From the IMG/VR virus record IMGVR_UViG_3300047553_000886, positions 1 to 22,320 of that record: a stretch of 22,320 bases of DNA. One strand, 5' to 3'. The stretch is from a virus. This document shows positions 704 to 22,061 of this stretch, piece by piece. Below the pieces are notes generated by a model that saw only the letters and a program-made list of their open reading frames with translations, was not told the origin of the DNA and did not search any database. Positions within the stretch are counted from its first letter, which is position 1; each line of letters begins with the position of its first letter. A program made the position numbers and the translations under genes.

Positions 704-732
704 ATAGTAAACGAAAAAGCACTTCGAATCAA
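704..732 (-). promoter_or_regulatory. Probable sigma70 promoter of btuB
   Basis: On the minus strand TTGATT (732-727) is followed after exactly 17 bases by TACTAT (709-704). Both hexamers are close to the TTGACA/TATAAT consensus. Initiation would fall near position 697, just upstream of the riboswitch. The prophage genes start about 90 bases further upstream, so the promoter seems to have been left intact by the insertion. Confidence 0.65.
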
Positions 733-822
733 ACCAACAGGTAAAGTGAATTGGAAACTACCCAGAGATTCATTTGGTTCGGATTTGCGTTGGTGCGTAA
801 GAAATGAAGGCTGTTTTCGCTT
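733..822. other. Likely left host/prophage junction (attL region)
   Basis: This 90-base gap lies between the btuB promoter (host) and the stop codon of the last gene of the recombinase cassette (phage). Large serine recombinase genes usually sit next to their attachment site, so attL is expected here. No direct repeat or core sequence can be assigned from one end alone. I see no strong terminator for the minus-strand recombinase operon in the gap, so read-through into the btuB leader is possible. Confidence 0.4.
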
Positions 823-1221
823 CTACTTTGGCTGCAAAAATATCTTCTCCTGCATAGACCACTCCATTGGAAACGGCTCCATCAGATCTTTCATCGTTAG
901 TTGCGCCGGGTACTTCCCGTCTAGGATGGCTTCAATGACTGTGGGTGACAGATAGGCCAGGCGCAGTATTCTGCTGACAAACGATGGACTGATGTTCTCT
1001 GACTTGGCCATGTCTTCAATTGAAGCGTGGGTACCGTCAAATAGTTTCCGGTGCCAGCGGTGGCCGCGAGCCAGCAGTTTGACCATGGCGTTATCAATCA
1101 GCGCCTCGCGCCGCTCGATCGCCCGAGAACCGTCGGGCATTACGATCACCGCCTTGCCCCCACGCCTGCGAAAAGTCATCGGAATCTCGGTGGTGAATCC
1201 CGCTTCGGTATCGGTGCTCAT
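823..1221 (-). CDS. Helix-turn-helix protein of the recombinase cassette
   Basis: A 132-residue protein. Residues about 67-90 (SIEDMAKSENISPSFVSRIL) read as a helix-turn-helix. The conserved segment before it (MTFRRRGGKAVIVMPDG and RGHRWHRKLFDG) and the C-terminal LTMKDLMEPFPMEWSMQ resemble, from memory, a small protein that regularly follows recombinases of this subtype. Its ATG overlaps the recombinase stop as ATGA (1218-1221), which implies translational coupling. The HTH suggests DNA binding, perhaps as a recombination directionality factor, an att-binding accessory protein or a repressor of the cassette; none of these roles is shown by the sequence. It is the last gene of the operon and faces the host junction. 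Confidence 0.8.
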   Translation of the reverse strand: MSTDTEAGFTTEIPMTFRRRGGKAVIVMPDGSRAIERREALIDNAMVKLLARGHRWHRKLFDGTHASIEDMAKSENISPSFVSRILRLAYLSPTVIEAILDGKYPAQLTMKDLMEPFPMEWSMQEKIFLQPK

Positions 1222-2561
1222 GCAGCCTCCAATTCTTTTTGTGGCTCAAGCGTGTCGCGCAACAGCTTGTTCAAGCCCTTGTCGTGCCATTTGATTGATA
1301 TGCCGTCCTTGCGCACAGTGATGCGTTCAACCAGGGTATGCAGAACTTTGGCCTGCTCCGCAGGGAAGAGTTCGTCCCAGACCGCGTCGACAGACTGCAA
1401 TGCGCTAATTGCTTTTGTCTCTTCAACCTTGGGCCGCTGCGCATTGACCTCACGCACTGCGTGGGCCAGCACCTCTGGTGAGCGCAGGATGCCGCGCATC
1501 TTTTCAACAACCACCTGTTCAATCTCACCGGCGGGGATGCGGCAGATGTCGCAGCTTTCTTTGCCGATCTTGATCGAGTCGGTGTTGATGTAGTAGCGGT
1601 AGGTCTTGTGCTGCTTGCGCGTCCAGCCAGGCGTGAAGGCCCGTCCTTGCTCAGAAAAAATAATTCCGCGCAGTAGAGAGGGCGCGCTGCCCCTACCCGC
1701 CAGCCTCGCCTTATTCATAGGGGTGCCGTTTTTCAGGTGCATCTGCACCGTATCCCAAAGCTCTTGCGTGATGATGCCGTCATGTTCACCAGGGAAGTGC
1801 TGACCCTTGTAGGCCGCAATGCCAATGTAGACCGGGTTGCTGAAAATCTTGTAGACAAGGCCTTTGGTGATCAATTTGCCTTCGCGGACAACGCCCTTGG
1901 CTGTTGTCCAGGATTTGGAGGTGACACCGCGCTTGCGCAGGTCTTTGACAATGGTGGCCATCGAGGGCGTTGCGGCAAAGCGAGCAAAAATCTCCTGAAC
2001 AATGGCTGCTTCTTTGGGGTTGGGCACCAGTTTTCGCTCAACCACGTCATAGCCCAAAGCGGGCATCCCACCCATCCAGATGCCACGCTTGCGTGAGGCC
2101 GCAATCTTGTCGCGCACCCGTTCACCGGACAACTCACGTTCAAACTGCGCAAAGGACAGCAGGATGTTGAGCGTCAACCGTCCCATAGAGGTGGTGGTAT
2201 TGAAGGACTGGGTGACCGAAACAAAGGTCACCTTGTGCTGATCAAACAGCTCGACCAGCTTTGCAAAGTCGGCAAGCGACCGTGATAAACGATCAATCTT
2301 GTAAACCACGATGGTGTTCACCAGACCCTTCCGGACGTCTTCGAGCAGACGCTTGATGGCCGGGCGCTCGAGGGTTCCTCCTGAGAAACCGCCGTCGTCG
2401 TAACGATCCTTGAGCGTTACCCAGCCTTCAGATTTTTGGCTGGCAATGTAATTAGCGCAGGCATCGTGTTGGGCGTCCAGTGAGTTGAAGTTTTGGTCCA
2501 AGCCTTCTTCTGTGGACTTGCGCGTGTAGATCGCGCACAGGACTTTAGGGGTGGTAGCCAT
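1218..2561 (-). CDS. Large serine recombinase (probable prophage integrase)
   Basis: A 447-residue protein with an N-terminal resolvase catalytic domain: IYTRKSTEEG with the likely nucleophile Ser16, YDDGGFSGGTLERPA, VVYKIDRLSRSLADF and FAQFERELSGERVRDKI. A Recombinase domain (GGMPALGYDV through NPVYIGIAAYKG) and a C-terminal DNA-binding part follow. The cysteine pair usual in the zinc ribbon of large serine recombinases is missing around LLRGIIFSEQGRAFTPG, which I believe is normal for the DUF2924-linked subtype. The chosen ATG at 2561 has AAGGAG about 7 bases upstream and overlaps the upstream stop as TAATG; a longer frame to 2600 lacks such support. The enzyme would catalyse integration and excision by serine-linked strand exchange. 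No tyrosine integrase is present in the window. Confidence 0.93.
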   Translation of the reverse strand: MATTPKVLCAIYTRKSTEEGLDQNFNSLDAQHDACANYIASQKSEGWVTLKDRYDDGGFSGGTLERPAIKRLLEDVRKGLVNTIVVYKIDRLSRSLADFAKLVELFDQHKVTFVSVTQSFNTTTSMGRLTLNILLSFAQFERELSGERVRDKIAASRKRGIWMGGMPALGYDVVERKLVPNPKEAAIVQEIFARFAATPSMATIVKDLRKRGVTSKSWTTAKGVVREGKLITKGLVYKIFSNPVYIGIAAYKGQHFPGEHDGIITQELWDTVQMHLKNGTPMNKARLAGRGSAPSLLRGIIFSEQGRAFTPGWTRKQHKTYRYYINTDSIKIGKESCDICRIPAGEIEQVVVEKMRGILRSPEVLAHAVREVNAQRPKVEETKAISALQSVDAVWDELFPAEQAKVLHTLVERITVRKDGISIKWHDKGLNKLLRDTLEPQKELEAA

Positions 2562-3004
2562 TAGACGCTCCTTCCAGAAGACAAACCAAAAAAGGTCCAA
2601 CCGTTTCGGTTGGTGCCTGTAATCACCATGGCGATGCGTGAAATGGACTTGTAGCGTTGACCCGCGTATTCGAAATCGTCAACGTGCACCACCACCTCGT
2701 GGCGCTCACCATCCCATTCCCGAATCAGGCGCGTTCCGCAGATGGGCCTGCCATCAACCCTGCGGCGGCGGACATCGGCTTTGCCACCATCGAGTTGTTC
2801 GCCAAGCTTCTCCAGGCGCTTGACGGTCTCGCGGCGTAGGCCCCCAAGGGCCAGCTCCTGAATCCGGTATGCCAGACGCGTTTCAAGGAAGCGCCGGTTA
2901 AACGGTGGTGGTTCGGTCTGAAACATTTCTCGCCACATTTGCTTGAGGTCAGGTGTGGGCGAGGTTTTAAGGGCTGCAACGCGTGCAACAAGTGAGTCAT
3001 TCAT
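2561..3004 (-). CDS. DUF2924-family protein
   Basis: A 147-residue protein matching the DUF2924 pattern: VAALKTSPTPDLKQMWREMF, EPPPFNRRFLETRLAYRIQE, GTRLIREWDGERHEVVV and the C-terminal ITGTNRNGWTFFGL. It is encoded directly upstream of the serine recombinase, with stop and start overlapping by one base (TAATG), so the two are very likely made together. The family has no established function known to me. Its basic residues and constant coupling to a recombinase suggest it is an accessory factor in recombination. The start overlaps the 3' end of the upstream small gene by 8 bases (2997-3004). Confidence 0.88.
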   Translation of the reverse strand: MNDSLVARVAALKTSPTPDLKQMWREMFQTEPPPFNRRFLETRLAYRIQELALGGLRRETVKRLEKLGEQLDGGKADVRRRRVDGRPICGTRLIREWDGERHEVVVHVDDFEYAGQRYKSISRIAMVITGTNRNGWTFFGLSSGRSV

Positions 3005-3191
3005 GGGTGTTGTCCTTGGTAGTCAAAACACCTGCATGAACGCTCTCTTCGGTACGGTTAGCAAGTTGAGCTTCGCGTTTTTGGCGGTCCAGAAGGCGAA
3101 TAGCGCCCTGGGCCAGGATTGCGCCGATGACGGCCATCGGGCTTGGCTCGGCGCGAGGGGTTGGTGGTGGGGTGCGATTTGGGGCGGTCAT
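2997..3191 (-). CDS. Small protein (64 aa) heading the recombinase operon
   Basis: A short proline-rich N-terminus (MTAPNRTPPPTPRAEPSP) is followed by an amphipathic helix (MAVIGAILAQGAIRLLDRQK) and a polar tail. The stop overlaps the DUF2924 start by 8 bases, consistent with membership of the same operon. No clear Shine-Dalgarno sequence precedes the ATG at 3191. I do not recognise a family; similar short proteins seem to precede DUF2924 genes elsewhere, which is recollection and not something visible here. The coding assignment rests on the overlap architecture and plausible composition. Confidence 0.6.
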   Translation of the reverse strand: MTAPNRTPPPTPRAEPSPMAVIGAILAQGAIRLLDRQKREAQLANRTEESVHAGVLTTKDNTHE

Positions 3192-7324: not shown

Positions 7325-8118
7325 TGGCCATTTCACTTGCACAACTCACCCGCGCCAATACGCCCAAGCCACCCCGTATTCTGATTCACGGTGTTGCAGG
7401 CGTTGGTAAAACCACCTTCGCCGCAGAAGCCAGCAAACCTGTGTTCGTGCAAACGGAAGACGGTCTGGGAACAATTCCGGCAGCTAGCTTTCCGCTTGCA
7501 CGCACGTTTGAGGAAGTCCTTGAGTCACTGGCCTCGCTTTACACCGAAGACCATGACTTCAAAACCGTGGTCATTGACAGCGTTGACTGGCTCGAGCCCT
7601 TGGTTTGGGGCAAGGCCTGCCGCGACAACGGATGGGGATCCATCGAAGACGCCGGTTACGGCAAAGGGTACGTCGCCGCATTGACTCTGTGGCGTCAGTA
7701 CATCGACGGCCTGAACGCACTGCGTGACGACCGTGGCATGACCGTTGTGCAAATCGCGCACACCGACATCAAGCGTTTTGACTCGCCTGAGCACGACCCC
7801 TACGACCGGTACGTCATCAAGTTGCACACCCGCGCAGCGGCGCTGATGCAAGAGCACTCCGACATCGTGCTGTTTGCCAACTACCGCATCTCCACCGTGA
7901 AGGCCGATGTCGGCTTCAACAAAAAAGTAAACCGCGCCATGGGCTCGGGCGAGCGGGTGATTCACACCGCCGAGCGCCCAGCCTTTTTGGCCAAGAACCG
8001 CTATGGCCTTCCTGAGACCCTGCCACTGGACTGGCAGTCCTTTGCCCAGGCCATGCCCGATGTGATCAAGCCCATGTTGATCGCCAACCCAGTCACCCCC
8101 ACCAACCCAACCACCTGA
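7324..8118 (+). CDS. AAA_24 / Sak4-like phage ATPase
   Basis: A 264-residue RecA-fold ATPase. Walker A is GVAGVGKTT (residues 23-31) and Walker B is TVVIDS (81-86); a Q-I-A-H sensor-like strand (VVQIAHTDIKRF) follows. This is the pattern of phage AAA_24 proteins (PF13479), several of which are grouped with the Sak4 single-strand annealing proteins. They promote homologous recombination of phage DNA, often with a partner ssDNA-binding protein; the next gene encodes a DUF669 protein that fits that role. The ATG at 7324 overlaps the upstream stop by one base; an upstream extension in the same frame (from 7120) lies inside the previous gene and is not favoured. Confidence 0.88.
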   Translation: MAISLAQLTRANTPKPPRILIHGVAGVGKTTFAAEASKPVFVQTEDGLGTIPAASFPLARTFEEVLESLASLYTEDHDFKTVVIDSVDWLEPLVWGKACRDNGWGSIEDAGYGKGYVAALTLWRQYIDGLNALRDDRGMTVVQIAHTDIKRFDSPEHDPYDRYVIKLHTRAAALMQEHSDIVLFANYRISTVKADVGFNKKVNRAMGSGERVIHTAERPAFLAKNRYGLPETLPLDWQSFAQAMPDVIKPMLIANPVTPTNPTT

Positions 8119-15242: not shown

Positions 15243-15756
15243 AAAGCAAGTTGCACAGCCATTGACCCATGGCACTTTGGTGAGTCTGCCCGGCGGTCGG
15301 GTTGGTGAGTGGATCAGTGAGGCGGAGGAAGGCACCAGCTTTCGCACCGAGCATTTCCGGACTGTCGACTCGCTCGGCCTTTTGATGCGCAATGGCGCGA
15401 TCACGGCGCAGATGCACGACGCGGGTCAGGACTTCTCTCGCACATTTGTTTTTGCTCAGCTAAGTTCAGCGGGCTCACCACCGCTTGATCGCATACCTGG
15501 TGGTCATTGGCAGGACACGATGACAGAGCGCTGTGCCTGGGCTAGAAAGCGGTTGGGTGAGGCGCTCGATGCAGTGGGTGGTATCAGTAGCCCCGGTGGT
15601 TGCGCTGTCTGGCACGTGGCCGGTTTGGGTCAAAGCGTGAAGGAGTGGTCTGCTCAGGAAGGTTGGAACGGACGCACACTCAACCAGTACGAGGCCAAGG
15701 GCATTTTGGTTGGCGCATTGGGTGTGTTGGCGGTGCATTACGGGTACAGTCGTTAA
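15235..15756 (+). CDS. DUF6456-like phage protein, possible late regulator
   Basis: A 173-residue protein with FRTVDSLGLLMRNGAITAQM, DAGQDFSRTFVFAQL, RIPGGHWQDTMTERCAWARK, LDAVGGISSPGGCAVWHVAG and a conserved end with ILVGALGVLAVHYGY. The layout matches the DUF6456 proteins I recall from alphaproteobacterial and betaproteobacterial phages, which sit between replication and packaging genes. The helical C-terminal half (WARKRLGEALDAVGG to the end) resembles a DNA-binding fold but shows no clear HTH. Its place suggests control of late genes, but this is inference. GGAGG at 15225-15229, inside the end of the RuvC gene, precedes the ATG. Confidence 0.72.
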   Translation: MAKKQVAQPLTHGTLVSLPGGRVGEWISEAEEGTSFRTEHFRTVDSLGLLMRNGAITAQMHDAGQDFSRTFVFAQLSSAGSPPLDRIPGGHWQDTMTERCAWARKRLGEALDAVGGISSPGGCAVWHVAGLGQSVKEWSAQEGWNGRTLNQYEAKGILVGALGVLAVHYGYSR

Positions 15757-15763
15757 AAAACGC

Positions 15764-15792
15764 TTGTCAGGACGTTGTCCGGACGCTATGAT
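15764..15792 (+). promoter_or_regulatory. Promoter with tandem operator for the toxin-antitoxin pair
   Basis: TTGTCA (15764-15769) and TATGAT (15787-15792) are separated by exactly 17 bases, a strong sigma70-type promoter. The spacer and -35 consist of two perfect-register 11-bp tandem copies, TTGTCAGGACG (15764-15774) and TTGTCCGGACG (15775-15785), which differ at one base. Ribbon-helix-helix antitoxins typically bind such short repeats, so autoregulation by the DUF1778 product is likely. Confidence 0.75.
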
Positions 15793-15820
15793 GGGTCAAC
15801 TTTTCAAAAAAGGGGTCGCC

Positions 15821-16099
15821 ATGACCGCAGTCATTCATTCCAAATCTGAGCGCATTGATGTGCGAGCCAGCACGCCTGTGAAGCAATTGCTTCAGGAAGC
15901 GGCGCGCGTGGCGCACAAAAATGTGAGCGAGTTTCTGCTTGACGCGGGCATCATCGCGGCTAACCAGACCTTGGCTGACCGCACCCGTTTCGAGCTAAGC
16001 GACGACAAGTGGTTGGCGTTTCAGGCTGCACTTGACCAGCCCGTGAGTGCCAAGCCCAAGCTCAAGAAGCTTTTGTCTGAGCCGGGGCTGCTTGGTTGA
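15821..16099 (+). CDS. DUF1778 ribbon-helix-helix antitoxin (TacA-like)
   Basis: A 92-residue protein with the DUF1778 core KSERIDVRASTPVKQLLQEA, ARVAHKNVSEFLLDAGI and a C-terminal toxin-binding tail (FELSDDKWLAFQAALDQP). RERIDVR-like strands form the ribbon that contacts DNA; the tail blocks the partner acetyltransferase. The ATG at 15821 is preceded by AGGGG; an earlier in-frame ATG lies next to the -10 and is unlikely. The stop overlaps the toxin start (TTGA at 16096-16099), ensuring coupled synthesis. It sits in the prophage as an addiction or anti-phage element. The assignment is strong from motif and context. Confidence 0.9.
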   Translation: MTAVIHSKSERIDVRASTPVKQLLQEAARVAHKNVSEFLLDAGIIAANQTLADRTRFELSDDKWLAFQAALDQPVSAKPKLKKLLSEPGLLG

Positions 16100-16608
16100 G
16101 TTCGCATGCTTACGAGCCAGTTCGCAAACTGGCCGGCTCGGACACCGTTGAGTCCTTCGACTGTGGCCAGAGCGCACTGAATCAGTTTTTGCAGCGCTTT
16201 GCGCTCGTCAACCAAAAATCTAATAGCGCGCAAACCTACGTGAGTTGCCATTCGGGCTCGGTCGTTGGTTTCTACAGTTTGGCGGTTGGTAGCGTTGAGC
16301 CTTCCAGTGCGGCACCTCGTGTAACCAAAGGTATTCCACAGCACCCCGTGCCGGTGATGATTCTGGCCCGGCTTGCGGTGGACCTTCAGCACCAAGGCGC
16401 TGGGCTTGGCAAAGCACTGCTCAAAGACGCGCTGCTGCGCACTGCACAAGCGGCAGACATTGCCGGAATTCGTGCACTGCTGGTGCATGCAAAGGACGAG
16501 ACTGCCAGGCAGTGGTATCTCAATTGGGAGTTTGAACCCAGCCCATCTGATCCGTTTCACCTGTTCCTTTTGATGAAGGACATCAAGGCCATGGTGGGTA
16601 AATCGTGA
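16096..16608 (+). CDS. GNAT acetyltransferase toxin (TacT-like)
   Basis: A 170-residue GNAT protein. ILARLAVDLQHQGAGLGKAL (89-108) holds the acetyl-CoA loop (Q100 to G105), and Y141 in ARQWYLNWEFEP is the likely catalytic tyrosine. The N-terminal ESFDCGQSALNQFLQRFA is typical of TacT/AtaT relatives. Such toxins acetylate the amino group of charged tRNAs and stop translation; the antitoxin gene immediately upstream neutralises it. The start is TTG, overlapping the antitoxin stop (TTGA), which lowers expression relative to the antitoxin. No ATG is available nearby in frame. The target tRNA cannot be told from the sequence. Confidence 0.9.
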   Translation: MSSHAYEPVRKLAGSDTVESFDCGQSALNQFLQRFALVNQKSNSAQTYVSCHSGSVVGFYSLAVGSVEPSSAAPRVTKGIPQHPVPVMILARLAVDLQHQGAGLGKALLKDALLRTAQAADIAGIRALLVHAKDETARQWYLNWEFEPSPSDPFHLFLLMKDIKAMVGKS

Positions 16609-20348: not shown

Positions 20349-22061
20349 TTGGCAGCAGATAACTACGCCGCCGTTGCCCGCAAGTATGCACAGGCAGTCG
20401 TTGCCGGTGACATCCTGACCTGCAAATGGGTCCAGCGTGCATGCCAACGGCAGTTGAATGATCTGGCAAAGTTCAAGGGCAAGGCAAGTCCCTACCAGTT
20501 CAACCCAAAGCTCACCGACAAGGACGGGCGGGAATTCCATCCCGCTGACAACCTGTGCGCGTTCATTGAACGCCTGCCCCACGTCAAGGGGCCGCTGGCA
20601 GGCGAAACGATCAAGTTGGAGCCTTGGCAGGTGTTCATCCTGACCACCGTATTTGGATGGGTCAAGCCTGACGGTAATCGCCGCTTTCGGCGCTCGTACA
20701 TTGAGGTGCCACGTGGCAACGCTAAGTCGACCCTGTCGTCTGCGCTTGCGCTGTATATGCTGGCCGCCGATGGTGAAGGTGGTGCAGAGGTTTACTCTCT
20801 GGCCACCACCCGCGACCAGGCGCGCATTGTGTTTGGTGATGCGCAGACCATGGCGCGCAGGTCACAGGGCTTTCGCAGCCGGTTCTCTGTCAACGTTGGT
20901 GCGCACAACATGAACGTGCTGCATACCGGCTCAAAGTTTGAAGCGCTCTCGGCAGAGGGATCTACGCTCGACGGCCTGAACATTCACTTCGGCTGCATTG
21001 ATGAACTGCACGCCCATAAGACTCGCACCGTCTACGACGTTGTGGAGACCGGTACCGGCAAGCGAGACAACTCGCTCTTGTGGGTGATCACCACCGCTGG
21101 CAGCAATCGCGCAGGCATTTGCTACGAGGTACGCACCTTTGTAACTCGACTACTCGATGGTGTGTTCGAGGACGACAGCCAGTTTGGCATCGTCTACGGG
21201 CTGGACGACGGGGACGACTGGACCAGCGAAGACTCGCTGATGAAGGCCAACCCCAACTGGGGTATCTCGGTGCGCCCGGAAATCCTGGGACCGCTGCAGG
21301 CCAAGGCCATGCAGTTGCCCAGTGCAATGAACAACTTCAAGACCAAGCACTTGAACGAGTGGGTCAACGCTGACACTGCATGGATGGACATGCGCTCCTG
21401 GGACGCCTGTGCTGATCAGGACCTGGACATCGAGTCCTTTGTTGGCCAGCCCTGCTGGGTGGGTCTGGACTTGGCCAGCAAGACAGACATTGCGGCATTG
21501 GTGATTGTGTTTGCCCATCCCGAGATTGCTGACGCATTCGTAGTCTTCGGCAAGTACTACCTGCCAGAGGACACGGTCAATGCCAACGGCAACAGTCAGT
21601 ACCCGGGATGGATGCATACCGGACGCCTCACCGTGACGCCGGGCAATGTGATTGATTTCAGTTGGATCGAAGCGGATCTGAATGATCTGTCCTCTCGCTT
21701 TGCTGTTCAGGCAGTCGCGTTTGATCCGTTTCAGGCGACGCAACTCTCGACCCGAATGTTGAGTGAGGGGCTGCCCATGATTGAAGTGCGTCCGACGGTG
21801 CTGAATTTCTCAGAACCGATGAAGGCGCTTGAAGCCCTGGTGCTTCAAAAGAAATTGGTTCACGACGGTGACCCGGTTCTGGGTTGGATGGTCAGCAACG
21901 TGGTGGCCCACCTGGACGCCAAAGACAACATTTACCCACGCAAGGAGCGAGCAGAAAACAAGATCGACGGCATCGTGGCACTGATCATGGCCCTTTCAAG
22001 GGCAATCAAACCGGGAGACTCGGTGGTGCTGGGATCCGACTACGAGTTGATGTTGCTCTGA
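20349..22061 (+). CDS. Phage terminase large subunit (HK97-like, Terminase_1)
   Basis: A 570-residue packaging ATPase/nuclease. Walker A PRGNAKST (121-128), Walker B GCIDEL (215-220) followed by HAHKTRTVYD, and the C-terminal RNase H-like nuclease with D374 (VGLDLASKTDIAALV) and a final acidic segment near NKIDGIVALIMALSRA. Full length for the family. The start appears to be TTG: no in-frame ATG exists before the conserved YMLAADGEG region, and the N-terminal YAQAVVAGDILTCKWVQRAC is typical of the family start. It cuts concatemeric phage DNA at cos and drives it into the prohead. The portal gene begins 4 bases after the stop. Confidence 0.94.
   Translation: MAADNYAAVARKYAQAVVAGDILTCKWVQRACQRQLNDLAKFKGKASPYQFNPKLTDKDGREFHPADNLCAFIERLPHVKGPLAGETIKLEPWQVFILTTVFGWVKPDGNRRFRRSYIEVPRGNAKSTLSSALALYMLAADGEGGAEVYSLATTRDQARIVFGDAQTMARRSQGFRSRFSVNVGAHNMNVLHTGSKFEALSAEGSTLDGLNIHFGCIDELHAHKTRTVYDVVETGTGKRDNSLLWVITTAGSNRAGICYEVRTFVTRLLDGVFEDDSQFGIVYGLDDGDDWTSEDSLMKANPNWGISVRPEILGPLQAKAMQLPSAMNNFKTKHLNEWVNADTAWMDMRSWDACADQDLDIESFVGQPCWVGLDLASKTDIAALVIVFAHPEIADAFVVFGKYYLPEDTVNANGNSQYPGWMHTGRLTVTPGNVIDFSWIEADLNDLSSRFAVQAVAFDPFQATQLSTRMLSEGLPMIEVRPTVLNFSEPMKALEALVLQKKLVHDGDPVLGWMVSNVVAHLDAKDNIYPRKERAENKIDGIVALIMALSRAIKPGDSVVLGSDYELMLL

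Follow-up and report, generated by a model that had tools for sequence, protein, structure and literature searches.

The DNA studied here, a 22,320-nucleotide window from the IMG/VR virus record IMGVR_UViG_3300047553_000886, probably captures the right-hand attachment junction of a prophage that encodes a serine recombinase. Sequence comparisons place this junction at a TGG trinucleotide (859-861), where a macrodomain gene has its 3' end, within the tRNA-Ser(CGA)/serS island of a Rhodoferax-type bacterium, with an acquired vitamin B12 operon lying intact about 130 bp away. This reading draws on a sharp change of identity at the TGG, an empty site elsewhere, an older break at position 757 and an island end at a tRNA gene; the recombinase of the adjoining cassette presumably made the crossover, and RNA from that cassette can presumably pass through the btuB leader. 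The underlying history would be one in which the B12 operon moved into the tRNA-Ser island, cutting the macrodomain gene at 757, after which the TGG beside the operon served as integration site for phages with this recombinase, at least twice or with later exchange, as suggested by the contigs C14 and L306 compared below. The operon would have kept its own promoter and riboswitch, both of them island DNA, and cassette RNA could run into its leader, riboswitch included.

The window corresponds to the minus strand of positions 26168-48487 of contig C14 in genome G000 (window position equals 48488 minus the C14 position), from which it differs by five single bases, at 7872, 8013, 9652, 16861 and 22275. 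This 75.7-kb contig was read for 6-7 kb of the btuB side and for the entire phage side. The block at about C14:3748-47626 (43.9 kb), whose right part occupies 859-22320 of the window, is a tailed-phage prophage with a recombinase, judging from the occurrence together of structural and lysis genes. PHROG matches within it comprise terminase, portal, major head protein, tape measure, endolysin and integrase, with the terminase large subunit encoded at 20349-22061 on the plus strand. A related phage is present in G089, another species of the genus, with aligned blocks of 80-97% identity and three unaligned stretches. The prophage also encodes a GNAT acetyltransferase (PHROG acetyltransferase) overlapping a preceding small ORF (15710-16608, plus strand), a pair that we take to resemble the TacAT-type toxin-antitoxin systems.

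Toward its right end the prophage carries a cassette on the minus strand, comprised of an ORF called for 64 amino acids (2997-3191), a DUF2924 protein identified by family match (2561-3004), a large serine recombinase (1218-2561) and an HTH protein (823-1221). The recombinase matches PF00239, PF07508 and PF13408, all above cut-off, i.e. the Resolvase N-terminal, Recombinase and zinc-ribbon domains, as well as PHROG 95 (integrase), while the HTH protein shows a weak SopB_HTH match and belongs to PHROG 14161. The HTH gene crosses the phage/host junction, such that its last 11 codons and stop (858-823) come from the host side. An earlier note on this DNA had correctly recognized that the last cassette gene ends at 823, that the cassette points toward btuB, and that a prophage lies upstream of the btuB promoter with promoter and riboswitch intact. 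Its phage edge at 823 or 733 has to be moved: comparison with related genomes, which it had proposed for fixing the insertion point, puts the right junction at the TGG at 859-861, inside the HTH gene and about 100 bp further out than had been supposed.

One line of evidence for this junction comes from L306, a Rhodoferax MAG contig colinear with C14:46459-53941. Between C14 and L306 there are 166 mismatches in 1168 nt (14.2%) before C14:47627, none in the next 433 nt and 178 in the 6315 nt up to the end of L306. The converse is provided by L151 and L152, which have a 98%-identical recombinase. Over the 2.4 kb ending at C14:47629 their identity with C14 is 96.1%, after which they continue into other genes; around the TGG it is 0.99 in the 300 nt to the left and 0.33 in the 90 nt to the right. 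Among the 12 closest loci, whose 65 distinct pairs share members and are not independent, a strong change point (log-likelihood gain >30) was detected in 42 pairs, lying exactly after the TGG in 31 of them and within 2 nt in 34. When all 45 loci were taken together (987 pairs), 899 pairs had a gain >8 and only 112 of these a change point exactly after the TGG, the scatter arising because distant pairs diverge elsewhere. The reverse pattern, with the right side identical and the left different, was seen in a single pair, C14/L306. Several key contigs, including the MAG contigs L306 and G029, derive from MAGs or viral metagenomes, in which binning or assembly errors are possible. As to whether the cassette is ancestral at this place, which the earlier note had named as a finding that would speak against its proposal, this holds only in part: L306 has the same junction but a diverged phage, and the cassette is absent from the leaders of the other relatives compared. 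These comparisons support a junction at 859-861, the putative right attachment site (attR), with this recombinase as its likely agent.

In relatives, a macrodomain gene encoded on the opposite strand lies to the right of the TGG, with its 3' end adjoining it. An empty macrodomain site lacking the HTH gene is seen in locus L295 of genome G112, where the macrodomain gene is followed by a DUF3293-type gene, and also in L152, beside a phage inserted elsewhere. In the present genome only the last 33 macrodomain codons are left (757-857, plus strand; stop TAG at 855-857), interrupted by an internal stop (TAA at 798-800), and this remnant is joined at 757 to 59 bp of btuB upstream DNA (698-756). The break at 757 is common to L306 and hence predates the present phage. 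Position 757 was itself considered as the phage edge, as the similarity to related phage contigs breaks off there (C14:47731) in a manner resembling an attachment point. It was ruled out: the common 100 bp are the 3' end of the macrodomain gene, which is phage-free in G112, and L306 splits at the TGG. Between the HTH and macrodomain genes some relatives have further genes, coding for 259, 282 and 144 (DUF3293) amino acids in L152:6703-8913, a 2.2-kb block with TGG at both of its ends.

On the other side, the B12 operon ends near C14:62620 and is followed by tRNA-Ser(CGA) at 62973-63062 and then serS. The contig of G029, which starts inside the operon and so covers its tRNA end and not its btuB end, differs from C14:53135-63100 at 76 of 9966 nt (99.2% identical), 4 kb of this block reading 100%; the adjoining serS region is 86.4% identical, G029 being another species. 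Copies of the sequence to the left of this tRNA occur at both tRNA-Ser(CGA) and tRNA-Ser(GCT) genes in the genus, and in G142 a B12 operon likewise lies near a tRNA-Ser gene, of the GCT kind. The operon thus looks like a horizontally acquired passenger of a tRNA-linked genomic island. Of the features expected of such an island, one end at a tRNA gene and near-identical content in another species were found, and no direct repeat of the tRNA end turned up for the opposite boundary; a 29-bp query from the tRNA end had no second copy in C14 with up to 4 mismatches allowed. As C14 may end inside the island, we do not claim a classical island as proven.

The same neighborhood raises the alternative that prophage and B12 operon are a single element, with the operon as phage cargo between the cassette and an element end at tRNA-Ser, in the place held by defense genes in relatives. 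Indeed, several backgrounds have the cassette to the same side of this tRNA-Ser element end. In G580/L152, a viral contig with a 98%-identical recombinase, it is followed by genes matching defense models (Hma/BREX/DrmD-type helicase and methylase) and then by the sequence of C14:62733-63085 with tRNA-Ser(CGA). G089 has the cassette about 16 kb from a tRNA-Ser(GCT) gene, and L179 has it less than 1 kb from the element end by a 50-bp match. A DrmD-like gene lies beyond the macrodomain gene in L161. Against a single element, C14 and L306 split exactly at the TGG into different phages beside the same operon, the 15.3 kb fetched from G112 include the macrodomain island at tRNA-Ser but no cassette, and G029 has the operon end at tRNA-Ser with only a weak recombinase match (32%, E 1.5e-10) in a genome that is 87% complete. 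Furthermore, a scan of viral contigs with this BtuB recovered no relative. We therefore regard the single-element explanation as improbable, though the best placed of the alternatives, and favor two elements meeting at the TGG.

Somewhat less probable still is that the change at the TGG came about through ordinary homologous recombination, or through deletion, among phages and islands rather than site-specifically by this recombinase. Its appeal lies in the left side, where the comparisons located neither attL nor attP, and in the great variability among loci of the accessory genes beside the HTH gene. Comparison of the left and right edges for direct repeats gave a longest common word of 8 nt, as in shuffled sequences, and no shared core near the left edge. 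Alignment of the left edges of four phages gave no common TGG point, the left breakpoint against G089 does not fall at a TGG, and the C14 left flank (C14:1-4500) yielded only a 24-bp match in the L306 genome. The right side speaks for site specificity. Of 71 loci searched, 57 had a match to the HTH gene and 49 had 40 nt beyond the match, and all but one of the latter have the TGG. These 48 loci have the 3-nt point in common but continue into 37 distinct 30-nt right sides, in which CA at +7/+8 and T at +20 are invariant, as expected for a recombinase half-site, although selection on the HTH protein could also account for these positions. With regard to the left edge itself, it adjoins a DUF411-like gene (C14:3185-3748, outside the window), and that of G089 carries a paralog of the 64-aa cassette ORF. 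An SDR-gene region near the start of the contig (C14:9-1571) has a second copy at G000:C2:28902-30126, with 85-89% identity.

The C-terminus of the HTH protein changes at the TGG between loci, and no free phage form was seen among the sequences compared. After the TGG the protein reads Trp-x-x-Gln in 48 of the 48 loci with TGG, the Gln codon being the third after it. Given that the attachment site appears to lie in the HTH reading frame, each integration would rewrite the C-terminus with host codons, and we tentatively raise the possibility that this constitutes a built-in sensor of the place or state of integration for a serine-recombinase phage; here the junction would open onto a mobile B12 operon, so that the arrival of a phage and the acquisition of B12 genes meet within one 130-bp stretch. 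A relevant comparison is integration-dependent immunity, the original work on which is reportedly that of Broussard in 2013. In the available part of one account of this system in actinobacteriophages, the attachment site likewise lies inside a phage gene and integration alters the C-terminus of the protein (PMC5559632). That system, as described there, involves tyrosine integrases, with an ssrA-like tag on the repressor (PMC5559632), whereas the present one has a serine recombinase and an HTH protein without an assigned role. In three loci of other genomes (L119, L238 and L159) the same cassette is followed to the right of the HTH gene by genes that by eye resemble two-component and metal-efflux genes.

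Turning to the operon, its first gene is the btuB-type TonB-dependent receptor, the 5' part of which occupies 1-397 on the minus strand (ATG at 397-395) and which runs past the window to C14:49929. The operon, apparently for B12 uptake and salvage, encodes in addition CobB, a binding protein, CobU, BtuC-like and BtuD-like proteins, CobQ, CobT and CobS. The curated NCBIfam cut-offs are passed by CobB, CobQ and CobT and missed by BtuB, CobU, BtuC and CobS. For BtuB the best-scoring models are TIGR01779 (416.9 against a cut-off of 599.7) and NF007926 (305.4 against 836), and we use the label BtuB-type because of the context, namely the riboswitch and the CobB, CobQ and CobT neighbors. The CobT of this operon is the single match in the genome. 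A second riboswitch with btuB lies on contig C1, and riboswitch matches in 35 other genomes of the genus number one in 30, two in one and none in four. The BtuB studied here is 26-32% identical to that of 15 of the 16 riboswitch loci fetched, including the genome's own other copy, and L039 gave no hit. Its nearest relatives among 200 genomes of the family are those of G142 (83%) and G183 (76%). These results do not support the resident nutrient locus of the earlier note and point instead to a divergent additional B12 operon, which sits in a tRNA-Ser island and recurs almost unchanged in another species, the usual btuB of the genus being that on C1.

Upstream of btuB, an intact cobalamin riboswitch aptamer was detected at 712-477 on the minus strand (Rfam RF00174; 74.6 bits against a cut-off of 31.5, covering model positions 1-189 of 189), and B12-dependent control of btuB is predicted from this match. 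It is preceded, as the earlier note had proposed, by a promoter at 732-704 with a -35 element TTGATT (732-727), a spacer of 17 nt and a -10 element TACTAT (709-704). This promoter matches 8 of the 12 consensus bases and for that reason escapes scans requiring 9 of 12; nevertheless, the conserved position of its -10 element supports the assignment. Of 22 distinct leader-motif sequences, 20 have a TAnnnT placed 6 or 7 nt before the conserved start of the leader; these 20 were identified by motif match rather than each by Rfam and are related to each other, and the chance level in shuffled upstream DNA is 7.9% per sequence. The two sequences without it, in L106 and L314, are second motif matches elsewhere, and the btuB leaders of both these loci have TAnnnT. 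The 59 bp separating the start of leader homology (697) from the macrodomain remnant are identical in L306 by alignment comparison, and could not be aligned with the upstream DNA of L104, the closest other relative.

No terminator had been noticed between cassette and btuB, and our scan of positions 400-900 is likewise empty (0.6 sites expected by chance), while the predicted folding of the 862-713 RNA is no more stable than that of its shuffles (z 0.01). A terminator-like hairpin occurs within the DUF2924 gene (2613-2597, minus strand), against a chance expectation of 5.5 such sites over the 4 kb scanned. It is possible that cassette RNA reads through into the btuB leader. Such RNA would carry the riboswitch too, so B12 would still gate btuB, and the prophage should have little effect, if any, on B12 uptake. 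The proposed coupling of uptake to lysogeny is further weakened by the operon having its own promoter. The original proposal, that a phage entered at 733-823, immediately ahead of a resident host btuB, and alters B12 uptake by prophage transcription, is consistent with the orientation, the intact promoter and riboswitch and the lack of a detected terminator, but is very unlikely given the junction at 859-861, the acquired nature of this second locus and the presence of the riboswitch on any read-through RNA.

What appeared to be an insertion beside a host vitamin gene is more naturally understood as the meeting of two mobile layers, a prophage and an acquired B12 operon, which corrects an easy misreading. 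It places a complete-looking B12 uptake and salvage operon in a tRNA-Ser island slot that holds defense genes in relatives, and offers a precise candidate crossover, spanned by a phage gene, for a recombinase family in which this point is usually hard to map. With the prophages of large serine integrases (PHROG 95, Pfam Recombinase) it shares the recombinase domains, an apparently short core and the terminal position of the recombinase gene in a prophage that also carries head, tail and lysis genes; it differs in that the inferred crossover falls inside the downstream HTH gene and that relatives use several sites in one gene array. As in the tRNA-linked islands treated in the available part of the Islander report (PMC4383910), the island DNA ends at the 3' end of a tRNA gene, though C14 showed no displaced tRNA fragment of the kind that should mark the other end. 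The nearest parallel for the locus is GI-23 of classical Vibrio cholerae, which according to the accessible part of its description is inserted into the cobalamin riboswitch upstream of the transporter gene btuB and carries anti-phage genes (PMC12409358). Both cases involve a mobile element at a cobalamin riboswitch/btuB locus; unlike GI-23 as described there, the element here is a tailed-phage prophage, riboswitch and promoter are intact, and the B12 operon itself appears to be island DNA. Finally, the closest B12 operon under the name of another genus (83%) is that of L307 (JASGCK010000004.1), titled as a Cytophagales bacterium; this is the contig of G142, which is placed in the present family, and the Cytophagales title may be wrong.
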